Shown here: positions 27,210 to 49,141 of the stretch, in pieces | How positions within the stretch are numbered: position 1 is the stretch's first letter | Layout: the number at the start of each line of letters is the position of its first letter | Source: Betaproteobacteria bacterium RIFCSPLOWO2_02_FULL_67_26 | Lineage (GTDB): Bacteria > Pseudomonadota > Gammaproteobacteria > Burkholderiales > SG8-41 | Length of the DNA stretch: 49,180 nt | NCBI GenBank assembly: GCA_001771935.1 | Contig: MERD01000089.1 | Coordinates: 16,049 to 65,228 of the forward strand | Reading direction: 5' to 3' | Translations under genes and position numbers: made by a program | The notes under the pieces: generated by a model | What the model was told of the DNA's origin: nothing | Seen by the model: the letters and a program-made list of their open reading frames with translations, nothing else | Database searches by the model: none

Positions 27210-27357
27210 TGTCGCGCGCGCATTCTCTTTCCTGATGGTGGGTCTGGCGGGGGTCGGGGCATTGTTATCAAGTTATTGATTTATGCATGAAATTACTTCA
27301 TGGCCCCAGCATGGCATACCACGGCTATCAAGCATAGCGGCGAGGCCATGCCCGGTA

Positions 27358-27373
27358 TGTGCGCCAGCGTACA
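27358..27373. promoter_or_regulatory. Crp-type operator, bidirectional (csbD + / ndvB -)
   Basis: TGTGCGCCAGCGTACA followed by GAACG. Rightward, GATCAT occupies 27395-27400, exactly 29.5 bp from the operator centre, predicting a start near 27407 for csbD. Leftward, TATGCT occupies 27331-27336 at the same distance, predicting a start near 27324 for ndvB. Both fit a class II activator position of -41.5. Confidence 0.75.
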
Positions 27374-27443
27374 GAACGAATGATTCACGAGCAGGATCAT
27401 GACCGCTGCGATGGAAACGTACGAGTGACGGCAGGAGGTTGAC

Positions 27444-27665
27444 GTGAACCGGGATCGCCTGGAAGGCAAGTGGAAGCAGCTCAGCGGGAGCGTGCGAGAG
27501 CAGTGGGGGCGGCTGACCGATGACCGGCTGAGCGTGGTCGCCGGCCAGCACGATCAGCTCGCGGGCAGAGTCCAGGAGCGATCTGGAATCTACAAGGAGG
27601 AAGGCGAGCGCCAGTTGAAGGCGTTCATGCGTCGCAACCGCGAATGGAATTCGACCAGCCGCTAG
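27444..27665 (+). CDS. CsbD family stress-response protein (copy 1)
   Basis: 73-aa soluble, highly charged small protein. The GTG start is fixed by GGAGG seven bases upstream. The family signature MNRDRLEGKWKQLSGSVREQWG is at the N-terminus, followed by an amphipathic charged helix. CsbD proteins are induced in general stress responses (sigma-B in Bacillus); their molecular role is unknown. First gene of a probable three-gene unit under the operator at 27358. Confidence 0.93.
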   Translation: MNRDRLEGKWKQLSGSVREQWGRLTDDRLSVVAGQHDQLAGRVQERSGIYKEEGERQLKAFMRRNREWNSTSR

Positions 27666-27689
27666 GCGCAGGAAAATCCGGGTGCCGCG

Positions 27690-28022
27690 ATGATCATCAG
27701 CAACCCCGTGATCCGGCTCGTGCTCAAAGCGATATCCGCGTGCGGCCTGATCGACGGTCAGCGCGATTCCGCCACCAGTCGCAGCAACCGGGCCGAGCAA
27801 AGGGATTCCCCCTTTGTGCTCGTCGGGCCTGCCCCCGACGGCAGGTGGGGCGTGTTTCAGCAGGACTTCGTCAAACCCCAGGCCTTGTTCGACGAAATGC
27901 AGGATGCCTGCAATTACGCAAACGAGCTGGCCAGGACCCGGACCGACGCGATGGTCCTGATACAGAAAAGACGGGATGCTGGCGCCAATCCGGATTCATC
28001 CATGGCGCAAGGAACGATGTGA
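27690..28022 (+). CDS. Hypothetical protein, DUF2188-like C-terminal half
   Basis: 110 aa, not confidently recognised. The C-terminal half (WGVFQQDFVKPQALFDEMQDA, then CNYANELARTRTDAMVLIQKR) has the Trp-rich strand, helix and final strand pattern seen in DUF2188-type proteins, which is a weak resemblance. The N-terminus carries a short hydrophobic stretch (VIRLVLKAISACGLI). It sits 25 bp after csbD, and its TGA overlaps the next gene (GTGA), so it is part of the csbD unit. Confidence 0.7.
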   Translation: MIISNPVIRLVLKAISACGLIDGQRDSATSRSNRAEQRDSPFVLVGPAPDGRWGVFQQDFVKPQALFDEMQDACNYANELARTRTDAMVLIQKRRDAGANPDSSMAQGTM

Positions 28023-28177
28023 GCCCGGCCCTGTGGATCGCCCTGGGCGTGGCGATCACCGTGGTGCTGGGCTATGTGCTCGGCATGCGTGTTCTGGCCC
28101 GCCAGAGCCGCGAGATCGACAGGCAGGTTGATTACAGCAAGATACGCCCATGGAAGGGCGACGAAGGCCGGGATTGA
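28019..28177 (+). CDS. Small single-pass membrane protein
   Basis: 52 aa, below the track's own start choice, which began far upstream at 27644. GTG 28019 overlaps the previous stop. Sequence: one TM helix (LWIALGVAITVVLGYVLGM) followed by a charged cytosolic tail (RQSREIDRQVDYSKIRPWKGD). No family recognised. It is the last gene of the csbD unit; 41 bp separate it from the convergent gene at 28219. Confidence 0.75.
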   Translation: MSPALWIALGVAITVVLGYVLGMRVLARQSREIDRQVDYSKIRPWKGDEGRD

Positions 28178-28218
28178 CCGGATCCGGCTTGCGACGGCTG
28201 CCGGCTACGGCTGCGCGG

Positions 28219-28677
28219 TCACTCGGAGGCCCAGCGGAAATCGACGGTCCTGAGTTTTGCCGCGCCGACGGCGACCTGGCGCTTGACCGTATTGCCCGCG
28301 AAGGTCGCGACGACTTGATAGTTGCCCGTCGGCAGCCTGGCCAGGAGCCACGGCCCGTCGGATGTGGTATCCAGAAGCGTCTTACCCGCCGCGTCAGCGA
28401 TGACCACCCCGACGTCGCTCACGTATGAGCCGGAATTCAGGGCAAACACGAGCTTGAGATTGAAATCGCCGGCGAGCGCACTGAGCCGGTCGATCGAATC
28501 CGTTCCGACGCCACCCGACACATAGGACACGCCACCGGCGGTCCTCTGGACGACCGCATCGTCGCTATTGGCGCCCGCGACGGGACCCAGGGCGGGCACG
28601 AGCAATGCGGAGCCCAGCAGGAGGGCCGCAATGCCGTGCGCAAGTGATTTGCTCTTCATGCCGGGAATCCGTTTCAT
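28219..28677 (-). CDS. Secreted protein with carboxypeptidase-regulatory-like beta domain
   Basis: 152 aa from ATG 28677 (MKRIPGMKSKSL), preceded by TGGAG; the track start is an upstream TTG. Signal peptide with AALLLGSALLVPALGPVAGA. The mature part has GVSYVSGGVGTDSIDRLSAL and a beta-sandwich pattern ending LPTGNYQVVATFAGNTVKRQV, typical of CarboxypepD_reg-like modules. Such proteins are periplasmic and of unknown function. Transcription is predicted from the operator at 28780. Confidence 0.8.
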   Translation of the reverse strand: MKRIPGMKSKSLAHGIAALLLGSALLVPALGPVAGANSDDAVVQRTAGGVSYVSGGVGTDSIDRLSALAGDFNLKLVFALNSGSYVSDVGVVIADAAGKTLLDTTSDGPWLLARLPTGNYQVVATFAGNTVKRQVAVGAAKLRTVDFRWASE

Positions 28678-28779
28678 GTGCTGATGCTCCAAGGTTAGCG
28701 ATTGTCGTTGTCATGCCGGCCAGTGCAGCAGACCGGCCCTGATGCATTCAGTGATTATCCGCAGCCGCGGGACGAACTC

Positions 28780-28795
28780 TGTGCGCTGGCGTACG
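28780..28795 (-). promoter_or_regulatory. Crp-type operator for the 28219-28677 gene
   Basis: On the - strand this is CGTACGCCAGCGCACA followed by GAGTT, the usual downstream extension. A GATAAT -10 lies at 28754-28759, 28.5 bp from the centre, one base closer than in the other sites. A second operator facing right is centred 39 bp away. Confidence 0.7.
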
Positions 28796-28818
28796 CCCGG
28801 CGCAGGATCATGCCCCTA

Positions 28819-28834
28819 CGTGCGCCAGCGCACA
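28819..28834 (+). promoter_or_regulatory. Crp-type operator for the 28892 membrane-protein gene
   Basis: CGTGCGCCAGCGCACA followed by GAGC. CATGCT at 28856-28861 is the NAnnnT hexamer at the expected 29.5-bp distance, predicting a start near 28868 and a 24-nt leader. The leftward direction has GGCGTA at that spacing, which is not a -10. Confidence 0.7.
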
Positions 28835-28891
28835 GAGCATGCCGGGGCAGGGGGGCATGCTGGCGTCCACGGGTTCAACAGCGGGTGACAT

Positions 28892-29524
28892 ATGGAATTC
28901 ATTGACAACTTCGTGATCCAGCGCTGGGCCGTCCAGTTCCTGGTCGTGCTTTTCCTGGCCGGGGGTCTTATGACCCTCGCTGTGGGCGCGGGCCTGATCG
29001 TGGGCAGTGCCGGGACGCTGCGGTTTTTCGTTGCCGTGAATCGCTGGGTGTCCACGCGTAGCGTTATCGGGCCGGTCGAGGATCCCCGGGTTGCCGGCCG
29101 ACCCGTGCAAAAATACCGGCGCTGGGTCGCAGTGGCGTTCATTGCCGGAGCCGCCTTTGCGCTATACGGCCTCGTCACGGCGTTCGACGCGCAGGAGGTG
29201 AGTCGTGCGTTCGGCCTGGACGCGCGGCCGTCTTCTGCCGCATCCTGGCTGGCCGAAAGCGCCAGGTGGGTGCTGATCGTGGGCAACCTGGCCGCGATCG
29301 CGATCGGAGTGTTCCTCGGCTTCTTTCCCGATGCATTGGCCGCTCTTGAAGTCAGTGGCGGGCGCCGGTATTCGTTTCGGCGGTTCGTCAAAGGCGCGGA
29401 TACCATGAATCTCTCGCTCGACAACTGGGTCGCGGCGTCCCCCCGGGCCGCGGGCTGGGTCATCTTCGTCGCCGGCCTGGTCCTGTTGGGCGATTTCGGA
29501 ATCGTGTTGTTCGGAGCCCGCTAA
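28892..29524 (+). CDS. Four-helix integral membrane protein, unknown function
   Basis: 210 aa. Hydrophobic helices at about 13-40 (FLVVLFLAGGLMTLAVGAGLIV), 78-98 (AVAFIAGAAFALYGLVTAF), 125-148 (LIVGNLAAIAIGVFLGFFP) and 188-208 (GWVIFVAGLVLLGDFGIVLF). Loops are charged and contain no catalytic signature. Family not recognised. It is convergent with the crp gene, with stops overlapping by a few bases. A small inner-membrane stress protein is the most that can be said. Confidence 0.8.
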   Translation: MEFIDNFVIQRWAVQFLVVLFLAGGLMTLAVGAGLIVGSAGTLRFFVAVNRWVSTRSVIGPVEDPRVAGRPVQKYRRWVAVAFIAGAAFALYGLVTAFDAQEVSRAFGLDARPSSAASWLAESARWVLIVGNLAAIAIGVFLGFFPDALAALEVSGGRRYSFRRFVKGADTMNLSLDNWVAASPRAAGWVIFVAGLVLLGDFGIVLFGAR

Positions 29525-30219
29525 GCCCGCGCGCCGTCAGCTACATCCTTGACGATCTGGTAACACCGGCAAGCGGCCGCTTCGAGGCCGTTCCCGTCGA
29601 GAATGCTGATGTTGCCCCGGCTGTAGCGGATCAGCTTGCGCCGCTGCAGGGCACTGGCGGCCTTGGTAACGGCAACCCGCAGCACGCCCAGCATATTGCC
29701 GAGCAGCTCCTGCGTAAGGCGAAAGTGATCCGTTCCCATGCGATCGCGCGTCATCAGGAGCCAGCGGGCAAGGCGGCCTTCGACCGGGTGAAAGCGGTTG
29801 CACGCGGCGGTTTGCGTGATTTGAACGATCCGCTCGTGGATATACCGGTTCAGCTCGTCATGCATGGACCCGTGCTTCGCATATTCGCTGAGGAAGCGCG
29901 CGGATGTCATGCGCAAGGCCGTTCCGGTTCCCTGAACCAGGGCGCGCACCGGCGAAATGTTTATCCCGAGTGCCACCGGTATCCCGAGCATGCCTTCACG
30001 GCCCACCAGGCCGATTTCCAGCGCCATATGCCCCTTGACCAGCGTGAGCAAGGACACCAGCGAGTCGGTTGGAAAGTAGACATGCCGGATCAACCTCCCC
30101 GGTTCATAGAGGACTTCGCCGAAAGTCAGCGTGACCGCCTCGAGGCTGGTCAGCAGACGCTGATATTCCCTGCGCGGCAGTGCCGCAAGCAGGCTGTTCG
30201 CAACCGGGACGCGGTTCAT
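29521..30219 (-). CDS. Crp/Fnr-family transcriptional regulator 1
   Basis: 232 aa from ATG 30219 (MNRVPVANSLLAALPRREYQ); the 394-aa track ORF runs back through the promoter and the next gene's start. It has an N-terminal cNMP-fold beta-roll (FGEVLYEPGRLIRHVYFPTDS, GREGMLGIPVALG, VRALVQGTGTALRM), dimer helix, and C-terminal winged helix (RLTQELLGNMLGVLRVAVTKAASAL). The recognition helix reads LRVAVTK where paralogs have RRxG. There is no FNR-type N-terminal Cys cluster, but AACN..H and a C-terminal CRCY motif are shared with the three paralogs. Operator 30291 predicts a promoter for it, so autoregulation or cross-regulation is likely. Confidence 0.92.
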   Translation of the reverse strand: MNRVPVANSLLAALPRREYQRLLTSLEAVTLTFGEVLYEPGRLIRHVYFPTDSLVSLLTLVKGHMALEIGLVGREGMLGIPVALGINISPVRALVQGTGTALRMTSARFLSEYAKHGSMHDELNRYIHERIVQITQTAACNRFHPVEGRLARWLLMTRDRMGTDHFRLTQELLGNMLGVLRVAVTKAASALQRRKLIRYSRGNISILDGNGLEAAACRCYQIVKDVADGARA

Positions 30220-30290: not shown

Positions 30291-30306
30291 TGTGCGGCCG
30301 CACACA
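30291..30306 (-). promoter_or_regulatory. Crp-type operator assigned to crp1
   Basis: TGTGCGGCCGCACACA on +, containing a perfect 14-bp palindrome. Leftward, TAACCT at 30264-30269 stands 29.5 bp from the centre, predicting a start near 30257 and a 38-nt leader for crp1. The rightward position holds GCACGG, which is not a -10. Confidence 0.6.
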
Positions 30307-30316
30307 GAGCGTCCTG

Positions 30317-30332
30317 AGTACGTTACCGCACG
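30317..30332 (+). promoter_or_regulatory. Crp-type operator for csbD copy 2
   Basis: AGTACGTTACCGCACG followed by GAAC. GACAAT at 30354-30359 is at the exact expected spacing, predicting a start near 30366. Its centre is 26 bp from the leftward-acting 30291 site, so two proteins bound together would lie on different helix faces. Confidence 0.6.
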
Positions 30333-30417: not shown

Positions 30418-30606
30418 ATGAACTGGGATCGCATCGAAGGCAACTGGAACAGGATCAAGGGCAACGTCGTCGAGCAATGGGACGATCTCACCGCGGACCA
30501 GCTCGTCAGCCGGATCCAGGAAACGTATGGCATCGCGGACGACGAGGCGGAGCGCGAGCTTACGGACTGGCAGCAACGCCTGAGTGAGATCGTTCGCGCC
30601 GCGTGA
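30418..30606 (+). CDS. CsbD family stress-response protein (copy 2)
   Basis: 62 aa with the canonical CsbD opening MNWDRIEGNWNRIKGNVVEQWDDL and a charged helix (IADDEAERELTDWQQRL). Closer to the family consensus than copy 1, so the two are old paralogs and not a recent duplication. Single-gene unit under operator 30317, next to crp1. Confidence 0.94.
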   Translation: MNWDRIEGNWNRIKGNVVEQWDDLTADQLVSRIQETYGIADDEAERELTDWQQRLSEIVRAA

Positions 30607-30634: not shown

Positions 30635-30650
30635 TGAGCGCTGACGTACG
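30635..30650 (+). promoter_or_regulatory. Degenerate Crp-type operator for collagen-like gene 1
   Basis: TGAGCGCTGACGTACG followed by GAACC. TAGCTT at 30672-30677 is at the exact spacing. The stretch from GGAACC to the -10 (GGCGTAGCTT) closely resembles the promoter of collagen-like gene 2, where the hexamer is TAGTTT, suggesting homologous promoters. Confidence 0.55.
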
Positions 30651-30768: not shown

Positions 30769-31434
30769 ATGAGACATTCGATGCAGTTAGTGAAGATGAT
30801 GAAACGCCCGCTGTTGCTGGCGGTTATTGCGACGTTCGCCGCCGGGTGCTCGACGATGGAGCCCTCCCAGCAGGTTTCGAGCGAACCCCGCAGCCTGGTC
30901 GGCCCGCGCGGTGCTGATGGTCCTGCTGGTCCTGACGGCATGCGAGGCCCGGTCGGAGCGACAGGCGCCATGGGCGCCCCGCTGGCCGGTCCTGCAGGCG
31001 CAGACGGTCCGGCTGGCCCTGCCGGGATTCAAGGCCCGGTCGGAGCGACGGGGTCTCAGGGCATAGCGGTCGTGGGTCCCGCAGGTGAAACGGGAGCCAC
31101 GGGTCCTGCCGGCGCGCAAGGCGCGATCGGATACACCGGTGCCCAAGGCTCCAGCATGGCAGGTCCTGCCGGCGCGACGGGACGTGCCGGTCCCGCCGGG
31201 GTGCAAGGCGTAGCCGGAAGCACGGGTGCGCAAGGCCCGACGCTGGTCGGTCCTGCCGGTCCCGCCGGCTTTACCGGTGTTGCAGGCGCGCAAGGCGCAA
31301 CCGGATATACGGGCGCGCAAGGCAGCACTGAACTGAGTGGCGTAACTGGCCCAACCGGCCGTGCTGGCGAAACTGGCCCGCAAGGTCCCGTGGGTCAGAC
31401 CGGTGCTCAAGGCCCTATCGGTTCAGCCAATTAA
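30769..31434 (+). CDS. Collagen-like (G-X-Y) lipoprotein 1
   Basis: 221 aa. ATG 30769 is chosen for its GAGAGGA ribosome site and the lipoprotein signal LLLAVIATFAAGC, with Cys27 the lipidation site. From residue 45 the protein is almost wholly Gly-X-Y, in five consecutive 29-aa units of eight triplets plus a 5-residue break (APLA, IAVV, SSMA, PTLV, STELS mark the breaks). X/Y are mainly Pro, Ala, Thr and Gln. Bacterial collagen-like proteins form triple helices on the surface; this one would be tethered to a membrane by lipid. No globular tip domain follows, so partner and role are unknown. Confidence 0.88.
   Translation: MRHSMQLVKMMKRPLLLAVIATFAAGCSTMEPSQQVSSEPRSLVGPRGADGPAGPDGMRGPVGATGAMGAPLAGPAGADGPAGPAGIQGPVGATGSQGIAVVGPAGETGATGPAGAQGAIGYTGAQGSSMAGPAGATGRAGPAGVQGVAGSTGAQGPTLVGPAGPAGFTGVAGAQGATGYTGAQGSTELSGVTGPTGRAGETGPQGPVGQTGAQGPIGSAN
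30901..31338 (+). repeat. 87-bp repeat array encoding collagen-like units
   Basis: Five in-frame units start at 30901, 30988, 31075, 31162 and 31249; the first four are 87 bp (29 codons) and the last is 90 bp. Each opens GPxG and closes with a non-collagen break. An array of this kind is prone to copy-number change. Confidence 0.85.
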
Positions 31435-31525: not shown

Positions 31526-31541
31526 TGTGCGACAGCGCACA
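31526..31541 (+). promoter_or_regulatory. Crp-type operator for the hybrid kinase operon
   Basis: TGTGCGACAGCGCACA followed by GAC. GATCAT, identical to the hexamer at csbD copy 1, lies at 31563-31568, 29.5 bp from the centre; predicted start near 31575. The reverse direction has TCCGGC, not a -10. Confidence 0.7.
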
Positions 31542-31649
31542 GACGTCCGTCGGCAAAACCGTGATCATTCACATTCACCCTGGAATAGGGAGGGTCTTTG
31601 TTGACAGTCCCCCCTCCGGATCGTTGTGCCCTTTTTACGGGAACCGGCA

Positions 31650-33359
31650 ATGTCTGAAACAAGAAACGGTCCCATCCTTGCCGGCGATGCCGGCAAGGCG
31701 GATGCCGCCACCGAAGTGCGACGCCAGAAGGCATTGCTTAAAACGGGGGCGTTGCAGAACGCGATTCTCACCAGCGCCAATTTCTCGATTATTGCCACCG
31801 ACGAGAAGGGCATCATTCAGCTGTTCAATATCGGCGCCGAGCGCATGCTGGGCTACACGGCCGCCGAAGTCGTGAACCGGATACGCCCGAGCGATATTCA
31901 TGATACGCGGGAAGTGATGGCGCGCGCCCAGGCATTGAGCGTCGAGCTCCGAACCTCCATTGCGCCAGGCTTCGAGGCGCTGGCTTTCAAAGCGTCGCGC
32001 GGGATCGAGGACATCTATGAATTGACCTATATCTGCAAGAATGGCAGCCGCTTTCCAGCCATCGTGTCGATCACGGCGCTGCGCGATGATTACGGCGAAA
32101 TCATCGGCTACCTGTTGATCGGCACCGACAATTCCGTGCGCAAGCAGGTCGAGTTGGAACTGAACAACGCCATGGCCGTTGCGGAAAAAGCCAACCTCGC
32201 GAAATCGGATTTCCTGTCCAGCATGAGCCACGAGCTGCGCACGCCGCTCAGCGCGATCCTCGGTTTCGCCCAACTGATGGAGTCCGGCTCGCCGCTGCCG
32301 ACGCCCTCCCAGAAGCGAAGCATCGACCAGATTCTCAAGGCGGGGTGGTACTTGTTGGACCTGATCAACGAAATCCTCGATCTCGCGCTGATCGAGTCCG
32401 GAAAGCTTCCGCTGTCGCTGGAACCGATATCGCTCACCGAAGTCATGGGCGAATGCCACGCCATGATCGAACCGCAGGCGCAAAAGCGCGACATTCGCAT
32501 GACCTTTCCCCGGTTCGAAATCCCGTACTTTGTCAAAGCCGACCGGACACGACTGAAGCAGGTTCTCATCAACCTTCTTTCCAACGGGGTCAAATACAAC
32601 AAGGTGGGCGGAACGGTCGTCGTGGACTACGCAGCGAGCACCCCGGGACGCATACGTATTTGCGTCAAGGACAGCGGCGAAGGCTTGGCTACCGATAAAG
32701 TGACGCAGCTTTTCCAGCCGTTCAATCGTCTCGGAAAAGAGACCGGCATCGAGGAAGGCACGGGCATCGGCCTGATGGTGAGCAAGCGGCTGGTCGAATT
32801 GATGAAGGGCGAAATCGGCGTGGAAAGCACGGTCGGTGTGGGCAGCGTGTTCTGGATCGAACTGAACCTGACGGCTGAACCACGACCGGGCGACGCCGCA
32901 GCCAAAACCAAGGCAGTCGCCCAGGCGCAAGTTCCTGCCGACGGGCGGTTGCATACCCTGCTCTATGTCGAGGACAACCCGGCCAATCTAATGCTGGTCG
33001 AGGATCTCATCGCGCGCCGGTCCGATATCCGCTTGCTGAGTGCGGAAGACGGCAACCGCGGCATCGAGATTGTGCGCGCCTCCCGGCCGGATGCAATCCT
33101 GATGGACATCAATCTGCCCGGCATCAGCGGCATCCAGGCGCTGAAAATCCTGCGCGCAGATCCGGCAACAGCGCACATCCCCGTGGTTGCCATCAGTGCC
33201 AATGCAATGCCCCGCGATATCGCGAAAGGCCTGGCGGCAGGATTCTTCCGTTATCTCACCAAGCCGATCAAGGTCAACGAATTCATGGATACGCTGGACG
33301 CGGCGCTGAAATTTTCAACAACGGAATCGGCCCGGGTCAATAGAGAGAAAAAAACATGA
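31650..33359 (+). CDS. Hybrid sensor histidine kinase (PAS-HisKA-HATPase-REC)
   Basis: 569 aa from ATG 31650 (MSETRNGPILAG); the track's GTG 31626 is less likely. Order: PAS with PAC (about 40-165), HisKA with phospho-His in FLSSMSHELRTPLSAIL, HATPase_c with NLLSNGVKYNKVGG and EGTGIGLMVSKRLVELMKG (N and G boxes), then a receiver domain with phospho-Asp in AILMDINLPGISG and a KP lysine. No transmembrane helix, so it senses a cytosolic signal through the PAS domain. Stop overlaps the next start (ATGA). It belongs to the operator-31526 unit with the REC-PAS protein and probably crp2. Confidence 0.93.
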   Translation: MSETRNGPILAGDAGKADAATEVRRQKALLKTGALQNAILTSANFSIIATDEKGIIQLFNIGAERMLGYTAAEVVNRIRPSDIHDTREVMARAQALSVELRTSIAPGFEALAFKASRGIEDIYELTYICKNGSRFPAIVSITALRDDYGEIIGYLLIGTDNSVRKQVELELNNAMAVAEKANLAKSDFLSSMSHELRTPLSAILGFAQLMESGSPLPTPSQKRSIDQILKAGWYLLDLINEILDLALIESGKLPLSLEPISLTEVMGECHAMIEPQAQKRDIRMTFPRFEIPYFVKADRTRLKQVLINLLSNGVKYNKVGGTVVVDYAASTPGRIRICVKDSGEGLATDKVTQLFQPFNRLGKETGIEEGTGIGLMVSKRLVELMKGEIGVESTVGVGSVFWIELNLTAEPRPGDAAAKTKAVAQAQVPADGRLHTLLYVEDNPANLMLVEDLIARRSDIRLLSAEDGNRGIEIVRASRPDAILMDINLPGISGIQALKILRADPATAHIPVVAISANAMPRDIAKGLAAGFFRYLTKPIKVNEFMDTLDAALKFSTTESARVNREKKT

Positions 33360-34180
33360 TGGTCAGTGCACCCGACATTCTCAACGCCAGCATCCTGATC
33401 GTCGACGATCAGGAGGTCAATGTCAGCCTGCTCGAGCAAATGCTGCGCGAGGCCGGCTACGCCTGCGTTGCCTCGACCACCAATCCACACGAAGTCTGCG
33501 CGCTGCATCGCAAGAACCGCTACGACCTGATCCTGCTCGACCTGCAGATGCCCGGCATGGACGGGTTCCAGGTGATCGAAGGCCTCAAGACCAACGCTGC
33601 CGACGGCTACCTCCCGGTCCTCGTGATCACCGCCCAGCCCGGCCACAAGCTGCGCGCACTGCAAGCGGGCGCAAAGGATTTCATCAGCAAGCCGTTCGAT
33701 CTGGTCGAAGTCAGGACGCGCATCCACAACATGCTGGAAGTGCGGCTGCTGTACAAGAAGCTCGAGGATTACAGCAAGGTGCTGGAACAGGCGGTGCAGG
33801 AACGGACCGCCGAACTGCGCGAGAGCGAAGCCCGCTATCGCAGCCTGACCGAACTGGCCTCCGACTGGTACTGGGAGCAGGACGAGAACGGGAACTTCAC
33901 CAGGGTTTCCGGCCCGGTCCTGGAAATGCTCGGTGTCCGGGTCGACGCCCTGGCGGGAGACAAAAGCGGTGCTCCGGTGGCCGGCTGGAACGAGGCGGAG
34001 CGGGAAACGCTTCAGGCAACGATCGCGGCCCGGCAGCCATTCCTGGATTTCGTCTTCAGCCGCGTCAATGCCGATGGCTCGCAACAGAAGTTTCAGGTGA
34101 GCGGGGAGCCGATGTTCAACCAGTCCTGCCGCTTCATCGGTTACCGCGGCATCGGCGTGGAACTCACCGCAAAGCGATAG
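33356..34180 (+). CDS. Response regulator REC-PAS without output domain
   Basis: 274 aa. REC domain (about 10-130) with IVDDQE, phospho-Asp in LILLDLQMPGMDG and ISKPFD; a coiled linker (LEQAVQERTAELRESEARY); then one PAS domain (SLTELASDWYWEQDENGNF) that ends the protein. The PAS opening SDWYWEQDENG resembles the first PAS of the PAS-Crp fusion across the divide (SDWHWEQDEHY), suggesting shared ancestry or a shared signal. No DNA-binding, GGDEF or kinase output is present. It probably relays signal by protein contact. Start overlaps the kinase stop. Confidence 0.9.
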   Translation: MMVSAPDILNASILIVDDQEVNVSLLEQMLREAGYACVASTTNPHEVCALHRKNRYDLILLDLQMPGMDGFQVIEGLKTNAADGYLPVLVITAQPGHKLRALQAGAKDFISKPFDLVEVRTRIHNMLEVRLLYKKLEDYSKVLEQAVQERTAELRESEARYRSLTELASDWYWEQDENGNFTRVSGPVLEMLGVRVDALAGDKSGAPVAGWNEAERETLQATIAARQPFLDFVFSRVNADGSQQKFQVSGEPMFNQSCRFIGYRGIGVELTAKR

Positions 34181-34204: not shown

Positions 34205-34948
34205 ATGTCTTCGCCGCATAGTCCGAGTCAAAACCATCTTCTCGCCGCCCTGCCCGCGGAGGAATTCGAGCGCCTGGCTCCCCATCTGGAACTGGTCCCG
34301 ATGCCGCTCGGCGAAATCCTCTACGAACCCGGCGGACAGTTGCGGCACGCCTATTTCCCCACCACCGCCATCGTGTCGCTGCACTATGTCATGGAGTCCG
34401 GCGCGTCGGCCGAAACCGCGGGGGTGGGCAATGAAGGCGTGGTCGGAATTTCGCTGTTCATGGGCGGGGAGACCACGCCCAGCTCGGCCGTGGTGCAGAC
34501 CGCGGGCCACGGCTACCGGCTGGAGGACCGCTTGCTGAAGCGGGAATTCGGCCGCGCCGGCCTGATGCAGAGTCTGTTGCTGCGCTACACCCAGGCGCTG
34601 ATTACGCAGATGACCCAGACCGCGGCCTGCAACCGGCACCATTCGGTGGAGCAGCAACTGTGCCGCTGGCTGTTGTTGACCCTCGATCGAGTTTCCTCGC
34701 GTGAGTTGATCATGACGCAGGAATTGGTCGCCGGCATGCTCGGCGTGCGCCGGGAAGGCATTACGGAGGCCGCCGGGAAATTGCAGCGCGCCGGTTTTAT
34801 CCGCTATCGCCGCGGCCACATTTCAGTGCTTGAGCGGTCCGGACTGGAAACCCGCGCGTGCGAGTGCTACGCCGTGGTCAAGAAGGAATTGAGCCGCCTG
34901 CTGTCCGACGTGCGGCACCGCCAGGGCGTCGCTACGGCCGTCCACTGA
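34205..34948 (+). CDS. Crp/Fnr-family transcriptional regulator 2
   Basis: 247 aa, 24 bp after the REC-PAS gene and probably in its operon. Beta-roll: LGEILYEPGGQLRHAYFPTTA, GNEGVVGISLFMGGETTPSSAVVQTAGHGYRL. Winged helix: IMTQELVAGMLGVRREGITEAAGKLQ. The recognition helix keeps the Arg-Glu pair (RREG) that in E. coli CRP contacts the TGTGA half-site, which makes this paralog a good candidate for the TGTRCG operators. QTAACNRHH and CECYAVVKKE motifs are shared with Crp4. The MGGETTPS segment groups it with Crp4 and not with Crp1/Crp3. The last 17 bp overlap the opposing gene. Confidence 0.93.
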   Translation: MSSPHSPSQNHLLAALPAEEFERLAPHLELVPMPLGEILYEPGGQLRHAYFPTTAIVSLHYVMESGASAETAGVGNEGVVGISLFMGGETTPSSAVVQTAGHGYRLEDRLLKREFGRAGLMQSLLLRYTQALITQMTQTAACNRHHSVEQQLCRWLLLTLDRVSSRELIMTQELVAGMLGVRREGITEAAGKLQRAGFIRYRRGHISVLERSGLETRACECYAVVKKELSRLLSDVRHRQGVATAVH

Positions 34949-36650
34949 CGTTCTTGATGACCCGGTAACACTTGCAGGCAGCTGCCTCGAGGCCCTTCCG
35001 GTCAAGAATTCTGATGTTGCCACGGCGATAGCGGATCAATTTCTGTTTCTGCAGGGCGCCGGCAGCGGCGGTGACGCCGGCCCGGCGTATGCCCAGCATC
35101 TGCGCCAGCAATTCGTGCGTGAGGCGGAATTCGTTCGACCGCACGCGGTCGCGGGTCATCAGCAGCCAGCGGGCAAGGCGCGCTTTCACCGCGTGGAAAT
35201 TGTTGCACGCGGCGGTTTGCGCGAATTGGGCCATCAGCGCGTGCGTGTAGTGATACAGAACCCGTTGCAGTGGCATGCTTTGCAGCAGTTCCTTGCGAAA
35301 GGGCGCGGCTTCCATCCGCATGGCGGTTCCGGTGCCCTGCACCAGGGCGCGCACGGGTGAGACGTTGCTCCCCAGCGCCAACGGAATACCGACCATGCCC
35401 TCATGGCCGACCAGCCCGACTTCCAGGGCGCGGTGGCCGTCTACCGCCGTCAGCAGGGAAACCAGACAGTCGATCGGAAAGTAGACATGTCGGATCGGCG
35501 CCCCGGGCGCGTAGAGCACCTCGCCGAATGTCAGCGTAACCGGCTCGAGGCCGGTCTGCAGGCGTTGATATTCCGCATGGGGCAGGGCAGCCAGCAGGCT
35601 GTTTGCAACCGATACCCGGTTAGCCGGTTCCCGGTTTACAGCGGGCACCTGGTTTGCCACAGTGTAATCCAGCCCCAGCAGCTGCTCCGCACGCTTGCGC
35701 TCGGTAATGTTCTCGCGCGACACGACCGCGCGCATTGCGCCGTCTCCGCGATAGCCGGTAACGGTCAGCACGAACCAGCGCTGCCCGGCCGGCGAGTCGG
35801 AGGCATGCTCATGGCTGAACGATCTGCTCTCGCCCGCAATCACCTGGCGGATCCCGGCGGCGATCGCGCCGCCTTCCGCGCGCTCGTTGCCAACAGCGTT
35901 GTCGCACACCGCCAGATAGTTGGCGCCCTCACGGACGCCCGCTGCGACGCTGCCGTTGACGGCGGTGCAAGCGCGCCACGCCTGGTTCGCCATGATGACG
36001 GTCCCCGCCGGGTCGAGCACGCAGACCTGGGCGGCAAGCGCATCGAGCGCGGCGCGGGCGTGGCGATCCGATCCCTGCACCAGGGCTGCCGCCTGCTTGC
36101 GCCCGGTGATATCCCGAGTGGTTCCGCGGTAGCCCTTGAACTCGTCTTGCTGGTCGAAGACCGGCTCGCCGTCGACGCTGATGTAGCGCACCTCGCCGGC
36201 GCGGTCTACGCGCCTGAGTTCGAGGTCATGAAAGGTGGCGCGCCATTCCAGCTGATTGCGGTGCGTCTGCCAGTCGGCCTCGCTCATGTTGTCGAACGGC
36301 AGCTCCCAAAGCGCCTTGCCGATGATGTGTGCATCGTCGAATCCGGAACTGCCGACCCCGGCGCCCGCGCGCGCAGCGAAGCGGTAGTGCTCGTCCTGCT
36401 CCCAGTGCCAGTCCGAGCACAGCGCGACCAGGCTGCGGAAGCGCGTCTTGCGCTCGATCAGGGCCCGCTGCGCTTCGGGCAGCAGGATGGCGCTGCCGCT
36501 CGCGGTGTCGATGATGGCGTCAATCTGGCCCGCTTCGATGGCCAGCCGCTCGGGACCGCCCTTGACCAGCCGCAGCATGACGTTTTCGAACCCGGGCCTG
36601 GCACCGCTGCGAGCGGGGTTCTGCTGCGGCGCGTTGAGCTTGGGATTCAT
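34932..36650 (-). CDS. PAS-PAS-Crp fusion transcriptional regulator (Crp 3)
   Basis: 572 aa. An N-terminal leader (AIEAGQIDAIIDTASGSAILLPEAQRAL), often seen before PAS domains of sensor kinases, is followed by PAS 1 (about 70-190, with VRYISVDGEPVFDQQDEFKGY) and PAS 2 (about 200-330). Then comes a full Crp module: beta-roll (FGEVLYAPGAPIRHVYFPIDC, GHEGMVGIPLALGSNVSP, VRALVQGTGTAMRM) and winged helix (RLTHELLAQMLGIRRAGVTAAAG). The Crp part is closest to Crp 1. ATG overlaps the kaiB stop, so it is the third gene of kaiC-kaiB-crp3 and a plausible direct transcriptional output of the KaiBC pair. The architecture is unusual. Confidence 0.92.
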   Translation of the reverse strand: MNPKLNAPQQNPARSGARPGFENVMLRLVKGGPERLAIEAGQIDAIIDTASGSAILLPEAQRALIERKTRFRSLVALCSDWHWEQDEHYRFAARAGAGVGSSGFDDAHIIGKALWELPFDNMSEADWQTHRNQLEWRATFHDLELRRVDRAGEVRYISVDGEPVFDQQDEFKGYRGTTRDITGRKQAAALVQGSDRHARAALDALAAQVCVLDPAGTVIMANQAWRACTAVNGSVAAGVREGANYLAVCDNAVGNERAEGGAIAAGIRQVIAGESRSFSHEHASDSPAGQRWFVLTVTGYRGDGAMRAVVSRENITERKRAEQLLGLDYTVANQVPAVNREPANRVSVANSLLAALPHAEYQRLQTGLEPVTLTFGEVLYAPGAPIRHVYFPIDCLVSLLTAVDGHRALEVGLVGHEGMVGIPLALGSNVSPVRALVQGTGTAMRMEAAPFRKELLQSMPLQRVLYHYTHALMAQFAQTAACNNFHAVKARLARWLLMTRDRVRSNEFRLTHELLAQMLGIRRAGVTAAAGALQKQKLIRYRRGNIRILDRKGLEAAACKCYRVIKNVSGRP

Positions 36651-38894: not shown

Positions 38895-38910
38895 TGTGTG
38901 CCAGCGTACA
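38895..38910 (-). promoter_or_regulatory. Crp-type operator for the kaiCB-crp3 operon
   Basis: On + TGTGTGCCAGCGTACA; on - TGTACGCTGGCACACA. Leftward, CAGACT at 38868-38873 is the NAnnnT hexamer at 29.5 bp, predicting a start near 38861 and a ~100-nt leader for kaiC. Rightward holds CGGCGG. The rest of the 38761-39021 gap shows nothing else recognisable. Confidence 0.55.
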
Positions 38911-39246: not shown

Positions 39247-39262
39247 TGTACGGTCCCGCACG
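39247..39262. promoter_or_regulatory. Crp-type operator, bidirectional (39340 operon + / DUF3096 -)
   Basis: TGTACGGTCCCGCACG followed by GAAC on +; CGTGCGGGACCGTACA followed by GAGC on -. Rightward CACAAT at 39284-39289 and leftward CAAGGT at 39220-39225 both stand 29.5 bp from the centre. The operator lies midway between the two starts. Confidence 0.65.
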
Positions 39263-39339
39263 GAACGGCGTGACCGGCGGGACCACAATTGCCGCAACGA
39301 TTGAGGGCTGACGGCAGCGGTGATGTGGAGAGGGATGCG

Positions 39340-39582
39340 GTGAAATTCACGGCGTTTTGTGTGCTGGCAATTTTCTTGTCGATGGCAGCCCACGGCGGAA
39401 TTTCGGACGCCCTGGGCGCCACCGGGCCGCAGCTACCCCAAACCCCGGTGCCGCCATCCCGTGCGGCGACCCCGCCGTCGCTGGATACGCCGCCCGGCGG
39501 ACCACGGAATCCGAACCCAACGCCGATGCCGGCACCGGCGCCAACGAACCACTACGCCGGTTCGGCGGGAGATCTCAAGTGA
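39340..39582 (+). CDS. Small secreted proline-rich protein
   Basis: 80 aa from GTG 39340 with GGAGAGGGA upstream. Signal-type helix FTAFCVLAIFLSMAAHGG, then a low-complexity tail rich in Pro, Thr and Gly (QLPQTPVPPS, NPNPTPMPAPAPTN). Probably an extended periplasmic spacer or linker peptide; no family recognised. TGA overlaps the next gene's GTG. Confidence 0.65.
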   Translation: MKFTAFCVLAIFLSMAAHGGISDALGATGPQLPQTPVPPSRAATPPSLDTPPGGPRNPNPTPMPAPAPTNHYAGSAGDLK

Positions 39583-40233: not shown

Positions 40234-40249
40234 GGTGTGCCGGCGCACA
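40234..40249 (+). promoter_or_regulatory. Crp-type operator for the glycine-zipper gene
   Basis: GGTGTGCCGGCGCACA followed by GATC. TAAGGT at 40271-40276 is at the exact spacing; predicted start near 40283 with a 55-nt leader. The reverse direction has TGTTTC. Confidence 0.6.
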
Positions 40250-40337: not shown

Positions 40338-40847
40338 ATGACTGAAGTCATCACGAAGAAAGTCACAGCCAACGAGAAAGACCTCAACCGGGACCCCCTC
40401 ACCGGCACGCCGGGCGCTCATCCGCTGGGCACGACTGCCGGCGCAACGTCGGGCGCCGTTGCCGGAGGCGTTGCCGGATTGGCGGTGGGCGGGCCGGTTG
40501 GCAGCATGATCGGGATCGCAGTGGGGGCAGTGGCGGGCGGATTGGCCGGCAAGAGTGCGGCCGAATCGATCAACCCCACGGCTGAAGAGAAGTTCTGGAG
40601 AGAGACCTACATCCGGGAACCGTATTACGTGAAGGGCAGGACCTTCGAGTACTACGCTCCGGGCTTTCGCGCCGGCTGGGAAGGCCGCGTGCGTCACGAC
40701 GGCCGCACCTTCGAAGCGGCGGAAGCCGAATTGAAGGTGAATTACGATCTCGCCAAGTCCGAACTCGCCCCCAGCTGGCAAGACGTAAGGCCGGCGGCGC
40801 GCGCGGCGTGGAATCGCGTCGATCTCAACTGGAAAGCAAAGCAGTAG
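40338..40847 (+). CDS. Glycine-zipper domain protein
   Basis: 169 aa, start supported by GAAGGAG. The central segment (TTAGATSGAVAGGVAGLAVGG and IGIAVGAVAGGLAGKSAAESI) is a Gly/Ala-rich zipper that usually forms paired membrane-inserting helices. The C-terminal half is soluble and aromatic (FWRETYIREPYYVKGRTFEYY, PGFRAGWEGRVRHDGR), with a charged end. No signal peptide is seen. Similar proteins occur as hypotheticals in betaproteobacterial stress clusters (memory, not checked). Function unknown. Confidence 0.8.
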   Translation: MTEVITKKVTANEKDLNRDPLTGTPGAHPLGTTAGATSGAVAGGVAGLAVGGPVGSMIGIAVGAVAGGLAGKSAAESINPTAEEKFWRETYIREPYYVKGRTFEYYAPGFRAGWEGRVRHDGRTFEAAEAELKVNYDLAKSELAPSWQDVRPAARAAWNRVDLNWKAKQ

Positions 40848-40867: not shown

Positions 40868-40954
40868 AAAAAAAAGAGAGGCCCTCGGACCGAGTGTGAA
40901 CCGAGGGCCTCGACCCGCCAGTCGACTTCAGGGAGGGAAAGTGCCGGCGGGTGC
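40868..40954 (-). ncRNA. Predicted small RNA with CU-rich loop and intrinsic terminator
   Basis: The operator at 40988 in - orientation drives an AATAAT -10 (40961-40966), predicting a start near 40954. About 45 nt later comes an 11-bp GC hairpin (GAGGCCCTCGG with its complement, 12-nt loop) followed by TC and eight Ts: a textbook intrinsic terminator on the - strand. The ~87-nt RNA has a 5' stem (ACCCGCC/GGCGGGT) whose loop carries TTTCCCTCCCT, complementary to AGGGAGG-type ribosome sites. No protein gene lies downstream in this direction before the terminator, and the region is intergenic. Start and function are inferred. Confidence 0.62.
40878..40911 (-). terminator. Intrinsic terminator of the predicted small RNA
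   Basis: GAGGCCCTCGG and CCGAGGGCCTC form an 11-bp stem; on the - strand the stem is followed by TCTTTTTTTT. On the + strand no T-run follows, so it is a poor terminator for the 40338 gene. Confidence 0.8.
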
Positions 40955-40987: not shown

Positions 40988-41003
40988 TGTACGATAACGC
41001 ACA
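40988..41003 (-). promoter_or_regulatory. Crp-type operator of the predicted small RNA
   Basis: On the - strand TGTGCGTTATCGTACA followed by GAAC, the full extended motif. AATAAT is 29.5 bp from the centre. The + direction has TTCGCT at that position and lacks the extension, so the site points left, away from collagen-like gene 2. Confidence 0.65.
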
Positions 41004-41079: not shown

Positions 41080-41095
41080 TGCGTGCCAGCGAACG
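41080..41095 (+). promoter_or_regulatory. Degenerate Crp-type operator for collagen-like gene 2
   Basis: TGCGTGCCAGCGAACG followed by GAACC. TAGTTT at 41117-41122 stands 29.5 bp from the centre inside GGCGTAGTTT, nearly the same string as at collagen-like gene 1. Predicted start near 41129. Confidence 0.5.
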
Positions 41096-41161: not shown

Positions 41162-41546
<385 letters not shown>

Positions 41547-41602
41547 TACGTCGCATATTCCTCACGTTAATCTTGCTCACCTTGATTGCCATCCGCCACG
41601 CA

Positions 41603-42991
41603 ATGCAAATGGCCGCAGCCAGGTATCTTGCGGTGGCTGGGTTTTGCCTGCTCGCCGCGGCAGGCTGCGCGACTCTGCCTGACACCGATGCCCTCATCGA
41701 GCGCCATGCCGGGCAGGCAGCCCGGTTCGAAAATGCGAGCGGTCCGCTTTCCGTGCAGAGAAACGCCGCTATCCTCGCAGAGCTCAAGCGCAAGTCCGGC
41801 GACATCGATATTCTGGACAAGCAGATTGCGCTGGAACAGGCCATCGTCGGCAGCCCGCTCGTCCTGGGAAACAAAGTTACCCTGCTGCAGGACGGAGCGG
41901 CCACCTACCTGGCGATGTTTGCCGCGATCCGCAACGCCCGGGACCATGTCAACCTGGAAACCTACATCATCGAGGACGACGAAATAGGGCGGCAGTTCGC
42001 GGATTTGCTGCTGGAGCAGCAGGGCGGGGGAGTCCAGGTCAACGTCATCTATGACAGTGTCGGTGGTTTGATTACGCCGAAGGCCTACTTCGACCGGCTG
42101 AAGGCAGGCGGGATCGAGGTGCTCGAATTCAACCCGATCAACCCGCTCAAGGCGAAGACGCCATGGCTGATCAATAACCGCGATCACCGGAAGCTGCTCG
42201 TGGTCGACGGGCGCACCGCATTCATCGGCGGGATCAACATCAGCAGCGTTTATTCTTCGGGATCGGCCGCCAGGCGGACCGGAAATGCGGCCGACCACAA
42301 TGTGGCATGGCGCGATACCCACCTTCAGATCGAAGGTCCCGTGGTCGGTGAATTGCAGAAGTTGTTCATGGAAACGTGGGAAAAGCAGCGCGGCAAGCCG
42401 CTTGCCCCGAAAGAATATTTCCCGGCGCTGGAGGCGCAGGGAAAGGACATTGTGCTCGCCATCGGCAGCACGCCCGACGATCCCTACAGCCTGATCTACC
42501 TGACGCTGATCTCCGCGATCGGCAATGCGGAAAAGCAGGTGTATCTGACCATTGCGTATTTCGTTCCCGACCCCCAACTGCTGAAGTCATTGACCGACGC
42601 CGCCGGGCGCGGGGTCGACGTGAAACTCATACTGCCGAGCCACTCTGATTCGGAGAGCGCGTTTCATGCCGGGCGCTCGCACTATTCCACGCTGCTGAAA
42701 GCCGGCGTCAGGATCTACGAGCGGCGCGGGGCGCTGTTGCATTCCAAAACCGCAATCATCGACGGCGTCTGGTCCACGGTGGGGTCGACCAATCTGGATT
42801 GGCGCAGCTTCCTCGACAACGACGAGGTCAACGCGGTGATCCTCGGGCGTGAGTTCGGCCGGAAAATGCTGGACATGTTCGCCGGGGACCTCGCAGTTTC
42901 GGAGGGAATCGATCTGGAGAGCTGGGAACGCCGGCCGCTGTCGTTCCGGCTGAAAGAGTTGATGGCGCGACTGTGGGGGCGGTTGCTCTAG
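41603..42991 (+). CDS. Phospholipase D / cardiolipin synthase-like lipoprotein
   Basis: 462 aa from ATG 41603 (ATG 41609 equally possible), placed by the predicted promoter. Lipoprotein signal LAVAGFCLLAAAGC. Two PLD domains with complete HKD motifs: NRDHRKLLVVDGRTAFIGG and LLHSKTAIIDGVWSTVGSTN. GGINIS and DWRSFLDNDEVNAVI are cardiolipin-synthase hallmarks (ClsB-like). Its predicted lipid anchor is unusual, since Cls enzymes are normally inner-membrane or cytosolic-face, and suggests action in the periplasm. Likely remodels phospholipids under stress. Confidence 0.9.
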   Translation: MQMAAARYLAVAGFCLLAAAGCATLPDTDALIERHAGQAARFENASGPLSVQRNAAILAELKRKSGDIDILDKQIALEQAIVGSPLVLGNKVTLLQDGAATYLAMFAAIRNARDHVNLETYIIEDDEIGRQFADLLLEQQGGGVQVNVIYDSVGGLITPKAYFDRLKAGGIEVLEFNPINPLKAKTPWLINNRDHRKLLVVDGRTAFIGGINISSVYSSGSAARRTGNAADHNVAWRDTHLQIEGPVVGELQKLFMETWEKQRGKPLAPKEYFPALEAQGKDIVLAIGSTPDDPYSLIYLTLISAIGNAEKQVYLTIAYFVPDPQLLKSLTDAAGRGVDVKLILPSHSDSESAFHAGRSHYSTLLKAGVRIYERRGALLHSKTAIIDGVWSTVGSTNLDWRSFLDNDEVNAVILGREFGRKMLDMFAGDLAVSEGIDLESWERRPLSFRLKELMARLWGRLL

Positions 42992-46873: not shown

Positions 46874-46911
46874 AGGTGAACTGGAGGGTAGATGAAATGT
46901 TTCGGCCCGTT

Positions 46912-46927
46912 TGTGCGCCAACGTACA
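46912..46927. promoter_or_regulatory. Crp-type operator between mlaE (-) and BON gene (+)
   Basis: TGTGCGCCAACGTACA followed by GAAC. Rightward GACCAT (46949-46954) fits the 29.5-bp rule and serves the BON gene. Leftward TACCCT (46885-46890) also fits, but would start transcription about 5 nt before the mlaE ATG, so that half is less certain. Confidence 0.65.
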
Positions 46928-47045
46928 GAACTCCTCCATGGAAGGGACGACCATGGCGATCTCGTCGAGGCCTACGGCAATGGCCCGCTGCTCCGTTATT
47001 GATACCAGCGCGAGTTTTATTCACCTTAGTCTGGAGAAATCGACC

Positions 47046-47357
47046 ATGAAACAATTTAAATACCTATCCGTAATCGTCCTCGCTCTCGTGTTCGCGTCGG
47101 TCCTGGGTTGCGCGGGCGGCCCGCAGCAGGAAAGCACCGGGGAATACGTCACCGACAGCTGGATCACGTCGAAAGTGAAGCTGGCGCTGGCCGACGACCA
47201 GCAGGTCAAGGCACGCGAAGTCAACGTCGAGACCTTCAAGGGCGCGGTGCAGTTGAGCGGCTTCGTGATTTCCCAGGCGGCCATGGACCAGGCGGTCTAC
47301 GTCACGAGCGGCATCCAGGGCGTGACCTCGGTCAAGAACGACATGCGCATCAAGTAA
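47046..47357 (+). CDS. BON domain lipoprotein
   Basis: 103 aa from ATG 47046 (track start reads through the operator). Lipoprotein signal SVIVLALVFASVLGC; then a single BON domain (TGEYVTDSWITSKVKLALAD, EVNVETFKGAVQLSGFV, QGVTSVKNDMRIK). BON domains (OsmY, DolP) bind phospholipid surfaces and support envelope integrity. With one BON domain and a lipid anchor it resembles half of DolP. Probably co-transcribed with the M48 protease. Confidence 0.93.
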   Translation: MKQFKYLSVIVLALVFASVLGCAGGPQQESTGEYVTDSWITSKVKLALADDQQVKAREVNVETFKGAVQLSGFVISQAAMDQAVYVTSGIQGVTSVKNDMRIK

Positions 47358-47392
47358 CGGCGTAAGCGCCGCTTGCAACCTGTTGCGGCAGG

Positions 47393-47419
47393 GGCCGTTT
47401 CAGCCGTGCTGAAACGGCC
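47393..47419 (+). terminator. 12-bp hairpin between BON and M48 genes
   Basis: GGCCGTTTCAGC, CGT loop, GCTGAAACGGCC: perfect stem without a following T-run. It may attenuate read-through or stabilise the BON message 3' end. Confidence 0.55.
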
Positions 47420-47467
47420 TCCTGGCGCACTCCAACCGTTGACCCACTGAAACCGGAGCACGCGATC

Positions 47468-48289
47468 ATGATTACTCTTCGATTCGCAGCGAACATGACT
47501 CTCTGCCTGTGCGCGTTGGCGTTCGCCGGCTGCCAGACCACCACCTCGGGTGGGTCGGTCGGCGAGAATCGCTCGCAACTGATGCTGGTGTCGTCGGAAC
47601 AGCTCGAACAGATGTCCGCGGACAGCTACGCCAAGCTGAAATCAGACGCGTCGAGCAAGGGTACGCTCAACCGGGATGCCGGGATGCTGCAGCGCGTGCG
47701 CGCGATCGCCAGCCGTCTCGAACCGCAGACCCGGGTGTTTCGTGCCGACGCGCCAGGCTGGAAATGGGAAGTCAATGTCATCACCAGCAACGAGCTCAAC
47801 GCATTCTGCATGCCCGGCGGCAGGATCATGGTCTACTCCGGGCTGATCAATCAACTGCACCTCACCGACGACGAGATCGCGATCGTGCTGGGGCACGAGA
47901 TTGCGCACGCGCTGCGCGAGCATTCGCGCGAGCAGGTGTCGCAGGCGATGGCCGCGCAGGCCACGATCGGTATCGGCGCCGCCCTGCTCGGCCTTGGCCA
48001 GGGCTCGGCCGATCTTGCCGGCGCCGGTTACCAGGCCCTGGTCGCCACCCGGTTCAGCCGTGGCGACGAGACTGAAGCCGACCGTATCGGCCTGGAGCTC
48101 ACGGCGCGCGCCGGCTACGACCCGCGCGCCGGAGTCACGGTGTGGCAGAAGATGATCAATGCCAGTCAGGGCGGGCGTCCGCCCGAATTCCTGAGCAGTC
48201 ATCCGACAGATTCATCCCGGATCCGGGAGATCCAGTCGCTGTTGCCCACCGTGATGCCGCTGTACGCAGCCGCGCGCCGGCCGGGCTGA
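47468..48289 (+). CDS. M48-family metalloprotease lipoprotein
   Basis: 273 aa. Signal and lipobox in LCLCALAFAGC. The zinc site HExxH is in VLGHEIAHALREH with the third ligand Glu in DETEADRIGLEL. VITSNELNAFCMPGGRIMVYSG is the conserved loop of LoiP/YcaL-type periplasmic proteases. LoiP and BepA degrade misassembled outer-membrane proteins, so this is likely an envelope quality-control enzyme. It follows the BON lipoprotein by 110 bp on the same strand; no own Crp-type operator was found. Confidence 0.93.
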   Translation: MITLRFAANMTLCLCALAFAGCQTTTSGGSVGENRSQLMLVSSEQLEQMSADSYAKLKSDASSKGTLNRDAGMLQRVRAIASRLEPQTRVFRADAPGWKWEVNVITSNELNAFCMPGGRIMVYSGLINQLHLTDDEIAIVLGHEIAHALREHSREQVSQAMAAQATIGIGAALLGLGQGSADLAGAGYQALVATRFSRGDETEADRIGLELTARAGYDPRAGVTVWQKMINASQGGRPPEFLSSHPTDSSRIREIQSLLPTVMPLYAAARRPG

Positions 48290-48295
48290 GCAGGA

Positions 48296-49033
48296 TCAGC
48301 TTGCGGTTCTAGCGGGGAGCAGGCGGTCCATTTCTTTTTTTACCACCGCGTAGCACTCGCATACCCGTTGCTCCAGCTTCGGGCGGTCGAGAACGCTGAT
48401 GTGGCCGCGACTGTAATGGATCAACCCGGCCGCTTGCAGGTGTCCGGCCGCCTCCGTGACGCCCTCGCGGCGCACCCCCAGCATGTTGGCGATCAATTCC
48501 TGCGTCATGCTCAATTCGTTCGCGGGCAACCGGTCCAGGCTTAGCAGGAGCCAGCGGCACAGTTGCTGCTCCACCGAATGGTGCCGGTTGCACACCGCGG
48601 TCTGCGCCATCTGCGTGATCAGCGCCTGCGTGTAGCGCAGCGCCAGGTGCTGCAGCGCGCCGCCCTGCTCGAATTCCCTTTTCAGCGCCGCCGCCTTGAG
48701 CCGGTAGCCGTAGCCCGCGCTTTGCACCACCGCCCGGCTCGGCGTGGTTTCGCCACCCATGAATAGCGCGATGCCGACCAGGCCATCGCTGCCGGTCACC
48801 GCGATTTCCGCCGATGCCCCGTCCTCCATGACGTAGAGCAGGGAAATGATGCTGCTGGTGGGGAAGTAGACGTAGCCCAATTTGCCGCCGGCCTCGTAGA
48901 CCGCCCAGCCCAGCGGCAACGGCACCAGTTCCAGGTCGGGCAGCAGGCGCTCGTAGTCGGCAGCAGGAAGAGCGGCCAGCAAGTGATTTTGGCGGGGGTT
49001 GTACTTTCCGGACGGGACGGGCGTGTTAGGCAT
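48296..49033 (-). CDS. Crp/Fnr-family transcriptional regulator 4
   Basis: 245 aa from ATG 49033 with GAGGTG upstream. Close paralog of Crp 2: LPLGWAVYEAGGKLGYVYFPT, GSDGLVGIALFMGGETTPSRAVVQSAGYGYRL, SMTQELIANMLGVRREGVTEAAG. It keeps the Arg-Glu pair in the recognition helix and the AVCNRHH and VCECYAVVKKE motifs. Lacks an FNR-type N-terminal Cys cluster; ligand unknown. Operator 49093 with a CATAAT -10 gives a 26-nt leader, so autoregulation is plausible. Confidence 0.93.
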   Translation of the reverse strand: MPNTPVPSGKYNPRQNHLLAALPAADYERLLPDLELVPLPLGWAVYEAGGKLGYVYFPTSSIISLLYVMEDGASAEIAVTGSDGLVGIALFMGGETTPSRAVVQSAGYGYRLKAAALKREFEQGGALQHLALRYTQALITQMAQTAVCNRHHSVEQQLCRWLLLSLDRLPANELSMTQELIANMLGVRREGVTEAAGHLQAAGLIHYSRGHISVLDRPKLEQRVCECYAVVKKEMDRLLPARTAS

Positions 49034-49092
49034 GGGCGCACCTCACGCGAATGGCTGAGTCCAGCATTATGGCGAATAAATCATACCCCTTG

Positions 49093-49108
49093 TGTACGCT
49101 AACGCACA
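49093..49108. promoter_or_regulatory. Crp-type operator, bidirectional (crp4 - / CU-rich transcript +)
   Basis: TGTACGCTAACGCACA followed by GAGC. Leftward CATAAT (49066-49071) and rightward AATAAT (49130-49135) are both 29.5 bp from the centre and are among the best -10 matches in the set. Confidence 0.75.
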
Positions 49109-49141
49109 GAGCCGCTGGTTGCGGATGTAAATAATTCACGC

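Follow-up and report, generated by a model that had tools for sequence, protein, structure and literature searches.

A palindromic operator with a fixed −10 spacing recurs beside an uncharacterised Crp/Fnr subfamily and points to a shared stress and envelope regulon

The window studied here, a stretch of 49,180 nucleotides (G000:C89:16049-65228), carries in its right-hand part an island of stress and envelope genes with near-palindromic sites in its intergenic gaps. Are these sites operators that join the island into one regulon, and which protein would read them? A preliminary description had listed fifteen such 16-bp sites, and at every one of its coordinates we found the described sequence. 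The operator can now be refined to T-N-TGTRCG-YTAR-CGYACA-G-A. In the oriented logo of 111 distinct sites, a T at −51 and an unspecified base are followed by TGTRCG (−49 to −44), CTAn, CGYACA (−39 to −34) and then G, A and C. Beyond the 16-bp core the arms of the palindrome continue, the T at −51 (78%) being mirrored by an A at −32 (91%). The extension GA(A/G)C, which had been described as asymmetric, is hence in part the right half of this longer palindrome. The R of the half-site is A in only 34% of the operators, and the CG at positions 5 and 6 is almost invariant. Further downstream the same logo features a weak T or C at −12, an A at −11 and a T at −7; the A and the T reflect the rule by which sites were selected and hence are no evidence in that logo.

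The relevant evidence for a promoter function comes from spacing. In the window, the hexamer NAnnnT lies exactly 29.5 bp from the operator centre in 14 of the 15 sites and in 18 of 30 directions, as had been reported, against 0 to 4 directions at 23 alternative offsets between 18.5 and 41.5 (binomial p 2.5e-18). Also the one deviating site was described correctly: it is a weaker operator (28780..28795, 13.4 bits) with GATAAT displaced by 1 bp on its left, where it would serve the gene at 28219-28692 (−). The exact spacing sets the operator centre at −41.5 relative to the predicted starts. The class II Crp/Fnr promoter geometry proposed before is thus borne out by sites in the window, beyond it and in foreign genomes, and we infer activation from this position. 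The −10 elements are weak, and no sigma-70-type hexamer pair was found in the stretch scanned. A sigma-S reading of the −10 element was considered and dropped, as a mild C at −8 with no C at −13 is not diagnostic.

Following the island from left to right, the operator at 27358..27373 faces both ways, with GATCAT to the right for a CsbD gene (27444-27665) and TATGCT to the left for the NdvB (GH94) gene (18594-27209). The site at 28819..28834 (+, 31.8 bits) would serve a membrane protein of unknown family (28892-29524), and those at 30291..30306 (−), 30317..30332 (+) and 30635..30650 (+) a B-type Crp gene (29524..30219, −), the second CsbD gene (30418-30606) and a collagen-like, Gly-X-Y lipoprotein gene (30769-31434), respectively. 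From 31526..31541 (+) an operon is predicted to be read that encodes a PAS histidine kinase (31626-33359), a response regulator (33356-34180) and an A-type Crp protein (34205..34948, +). On the opposite strand, the operator at 38895..38910 (−) precedes the KaiC-KaiB-(PAS-Crp fusion) operon, which runs from about 38709 down to 34932; its PAS-PAS-B-type Crp fusion (34932..36650, −) is apparently co-transcribed with KaiC and KaiB. Again facing both ways, the site at 39247..39262 would serve a short ORF with a signal-peptide-like start on its right (39339-39582) and a DUF3096 gene of 50 amino acids on its left (39022-39174, −). Single predicted targets follow for 40234..40249 (+), a glycine-zipper-like protein (40338-40847); for 41080..41095 (+), the second collagen-like (Gly-X-Y) lipoprotein (41193-41462); and for 41531..41546 (+), a phospholipase D or cardiolipin-synthase-like gene (ORF 41519-42991). 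The operator at 46912..46927 is placed between a BON gene to the right (ORF 46911-47357) and an operon of MlaE, ABC ATPase, MlaD and a lipoprotein to the left (46954-43287). Finally, 49093..49108 faces an A-type Crp gene on the left (48296..49033, −) and, on the right, a predicted short transcript or an OmpA-family gene past the window. A run of N, possibly a withheld stretch, is found inside a predicted short transcript just beyond the window (L016:229-245).

Some directions lack an obvious long gene. For the leftward direction of 40988..41003 (−) a small RNA indeed is the predicted target; the leftward direction of 39247 and the rightward one of 41080, however, lead to the DUF3096 gene and the collagen-like lipoprotein named above. 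The putative small RNA (40868-40954, −) would start at about 40954 and comprise 87 nt with two stem-loops, a strong terminal hairpin and eight U (z −6.0). Our terminator scan missed this hairpin because its loop exceeds the limit of the scan, and Rfam gave no match within the window. In genome G020 a relative, 72% identical along 97 bases, comes with an operator of its own (TGTTCGATATCGAACA), a correctly spaced AATAAT and a terminator.

Instead of stopping at 49.1 kb, as had been assumed, the island extends about 9.7 kb past the window and thus beyond the reach of the preliminary description, from 43.2 to about 75 kb of contig C89 (about 32 kb). Its third-position GC is lower. The added part served as a hold-out and contains seven more sites that obey the rule, at C89 65295, 66110, 68978, 69397, 70432, 72374 and 74701. 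NAnnnT is found at 29.5 bp in all seven and in 9 of 14 directions (p 3.6e-10), two sites acting both ways. Predicted targets there include OmpA and a fatty-acid desaturase, among others, and the same stretch holds genes for MlaC, an AI-2E transporter, DUF5670 and a glycine-zipper protein.

Counting mismatches only, enrichment in the window was moderate (19 matches with at most two mismatches versus 8.3 ± 3.0 expected), and in the whole genome there was no surplus over the reversed control at up to one mismatch (46 versus 56 strand-counted matches). Since plain mismatch counting gave no genome-wide excess, it was replaced by the exact motif and by the operator combined with the −10 element. The exact motif occurs at nine sites in the genome, versus one site in the reversed control. 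We then turned to 80 loci around relatives of the island Crp proteins, taken from named genomes of Cupriavidus, Paraburkholderia, Collimonas, Variovorax, Ramlibacter, Nitrosomonas, Dyella, Rhodanobacter, Methylomonas, Thiocystis, Steroidobacter, Pseudomonas and others. As these loci were anchored on A-type genes, their counts describe neighbourhoods chosen by the regulator, a bias of which the genome-wide samples below are free: the perfect motif was found 49 times versus one reversed-pattern match, and 36 of these 49 sites have NAnnnT at exactly 29.5 bp versus about 3.5 at other offsets. A matrix trained on foreign sites recovered, at 14 bits or more, 20 oriented promoters in the window versus none reversed. 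All of them lie between 27.3 and 49.1 kb; left of this, in the core-gene part, the matrix scores none, in agreement with the preliminary description. In 16 regions of nine other genomes the same matrix at 14 bits gave 121 versus 1. Spacing and an independently trained matrix thus make the enrichment decisive, beyond what mismatch counts could provide.

Scanning related genomes in this way recovered not only operator and spacing; the targets recur across families as well. Families found repeatedly as first downstream genes elsewhere are Crp (a count that is biased, as the loci were selected by Crp), fatty-acid desaturase, CsbD, GGDEF, BON, cyclopropane synthase, DUF883, PAS, sugar transferase, PRC-barrel and DUF5670 genes, and predicted targets repeated across lineages also include Mla and NdvB.

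Which protein reads the operator? Four Crp-type proteins had been counted, yet the island holds six such genes: A-type at 34205 (+), 48296 (−) and L016:6552 (−), and B-type at 29524 (−, with the Cys/His set discussed below), L016:8917 (−) and, fused to PAS domains, 34932 (−). A seventh copy of the subfamily, of A-type, is located on contig C36. There, away from the island, lies another small cluster (L019, 2539-4968), in which the A-type Crp is accompanied by a canonical Crp, by small PLDc_N membrane proteins and by a single perfect operator. With the A-type protein 48296..49033 as query, operator-plus-(−10) sites were found in 69 of 81 Burkholderiales genomes with the regulator family versus 25 of 169 without it (250 genomes, p 9e-28), the mean number of sites per genome being 4.6 versus 0.25; at least three sites were present in 45 of 81 versus 3 of 169. 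A sample of the class had sites in 16 of 20 genomes with the family versus 27 of 164 without. At the level of the phylum, sites occurred in 25 of 29 genomes with a close A-type relative, in 9 of 34 with distant paralogs only and in 44 of 236 with neither. Distant paralogs (31–43% identical) hence do not track the operator in this sample, which follows the close A-type group. Strict sites are missing from twelve genomes of the order sample that carry the regulator; G017 and G402 have four operator-type sites each, and at the thresholds applied neither yielded a regulator. In the apparent exception G045, a fragment of the regulator lies at the edge of a contig, adjoining a site.

The regulator genes themselves are preceded by operators, which lie within 400 bp upstream in 58 of 78 A-type genes where about 8 were expected. 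Of these 58, only 20 are accompanied at 29.5 bp by a −10 in the forward direction, so control of the regulator genes may differ. Sites adjoin the A gene in A-only genomes such as G110 and the B gene in the B-only genome G196; from this it follows that both types probably use the operator. Altogether, co-occurrence supports a specific Crp/Fnr subfamily as the regulator, which would bind the operator. Hold-out sites, the foreign matrix, co-occurrence in three samples and operators 5′ of regulator genes uphold the original proposal of one regulon.

PF13545 (HTH_Crp_2) scored above cutoff in all five island Crp proteins scanned, and PF00027 matched the two scanned A-type proteins only weakly, under its cutoff, and was absent in B-type. 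The predicted fold of an A-type protein (pLDDT 89.7, TM 0.73 to CRP and FNR structures) is Crp-like, which agrees with membership in the Crp/Fnr superfamily, characterised by a cNMP-type sensor domain and a Crp-type winged HTH. In 49 of 62 divergent members of the family, C, H, C and C occupy positions 148, 152, 225 and 227 (numbering of 48296-49033). None of the three cysteines is present in the remaining 13, two of which keep the histidine, and no member among the 62 keeps only some of the cysteines. Such all-or-none loss suggests one functional site, for example a metal centre, and C148, H152, C225 and C227 may thus be a candidate metal or redox sensor site.

Operator, spacing, conservation and regulator co-occurrence, all observed by computation, lead us to consider it very likely that the sites are operators of an uncharacterised Crp/Fnr subfamily that the island itself encodes, of A-type and probably also of B-type, acting as class II activator. 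A regulator dimer would bind the 20-bp palindrome, which is centred at −41.5 and overlaps the −35 position, and would recruit RNA polymerase to the weak NAnnnT element. Envelope, stress and signalling genes, the small RNA and the genes of the regulators would thereby be switched on together. Some regulator promoters have an operator with no −10 at the proper distance, and there it may act as a repressor site instead. An altered cAMP-contact motif and a Cys/His set that is kept or lost together suggest that the trigger, acting at C148/H152/C225/C227, probably is a metal, redox or ligand event rather than cAMP.

Alternatively, the protein might act as a repressor that blocks the −35 region until a signal releases it. 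The overlap with that region would allow this, as would the many regulator genes whose operator lacks an own-direction −10 at class II distance. Repressor sites, however, tolerate varied positions. Here the spacing is the same across many promoters in many genomes, the −10 elements are weak and the stretch scanned yielded no sigma-70-type hexamer pair, a combination typical of class II activation; general repression thus appears unlikely. Still less probable is that the canonical Crp of the same genome uses a variant site, with A- and B-type genes as mere passengers of the island. A Crp-like gene with an SRExVxR helix (L019:4070-4780) does adjoin the outlying C36 operator, and span and class II position are those of CRP. 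However, half-site position 5 is C in 97–98% of the operators where CRP requires A, genomes without the A-type family show only background site counts, and 58 of 78 A-type loci carry an upstream operator. Hardly credible, finally, is a reading of the motif as a mobile or structural repeat, or as a product of island composition, without regulatory role, even though sites cluster where third-position GC is lower: copies have unrelated surroundings (111 of 113 flanks distinct), reversed controls gave 0–1, and neither a fixed −10 nor conservation from class to class would be expected of a repeat.

Placing this proposed class II activator among known regulators, the nearest named family is cyanobacterial NtcA, which binds GTA-N8-TAC at −41.5 in class II promoters through a helix RVTVTR. 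NtcA is the best NCBIfam profile match of the family, a weak one (E 4e-7; 20.7–30 bits compared with an equivalog cutoff of 244.95). Both share the −41.5 geometry, GTR-N8-YAC includes the NtcA core when R is A, and the B-type helix RVGVTK resembles that of NtcA. The operator differs by its minority of sites with A at R and its nearly invariant CG, and the family by its targets, lineages and Cys/His set. E. coli CRP, which reads TGTGA-N6-TCACA through the contacts R180, E181 and R185, also from class II positions, shares fold, palindrome span, promoter position and a conserved Arg aligning to R180. In contrast, the operator has TGTRC with C replacing A at position 5, an alignment by eye with the CRP helix places E, K or A opposite R185, the phosphate-binding (cAMP) cassette region of the regulator is altered, and a C-terminal CxCY extension is present. 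The half-site was thus rightly set apart from that of CRP, although its GTR is close to the GTA of NtcA and so less unlike known sites than a comparison with TGTGA alone suggests. FNR, DNR, NnrR and CooA have the Crp/Fnr fold, but their half-sites TTGAT, TTGTC or TGTCG do not fit the operator. Unlike FNR, the family has no N-terminal cysteine cluster for a [4Fe-4S] centre, its conserved cysteines 148, 225 and 227 being located at the hinge and C-terminus. RedB of Rhodobacter capsulatus likewise represents a CRP/FNR subgroup that had long gone unstudied, but its motif is of another type: ChIP-seq yielded an AT-rich, non-palindromic one of 12 bp (PMC9603854). PMC5343134 does not mention Crp or Fnr. 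In the open-access literature searched, we found no described regulon with this operator, consistent with the preliminary description, and no shared regulator for CsbD, BON, DUF883, DUF3096, KaiBC and Mla genes.

These and other stress and envelope genes are widespread among environmental proteobacteria. Operator, promoter rule and protein family can now be offered for them, and targets become predictable from sequence wherever a genome has the regulator. The Cys/His set hints at what is sensed. We may tentatively speculate, with more doubt than confidence, that C148-H152-C225-C227 forms a metal or redox sensor of a new kind, which links the hinge with the C-terminal tail across a broad branch of Crp/Fnr proteins, and that several paralogs with different signals converge on one operator for a general stress and envelope response in beta- and gammaproteobacteria. 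The recurrence of the operators beside one uncharacterised Crp-like family in many other bacteria points to a shared stress regulon.
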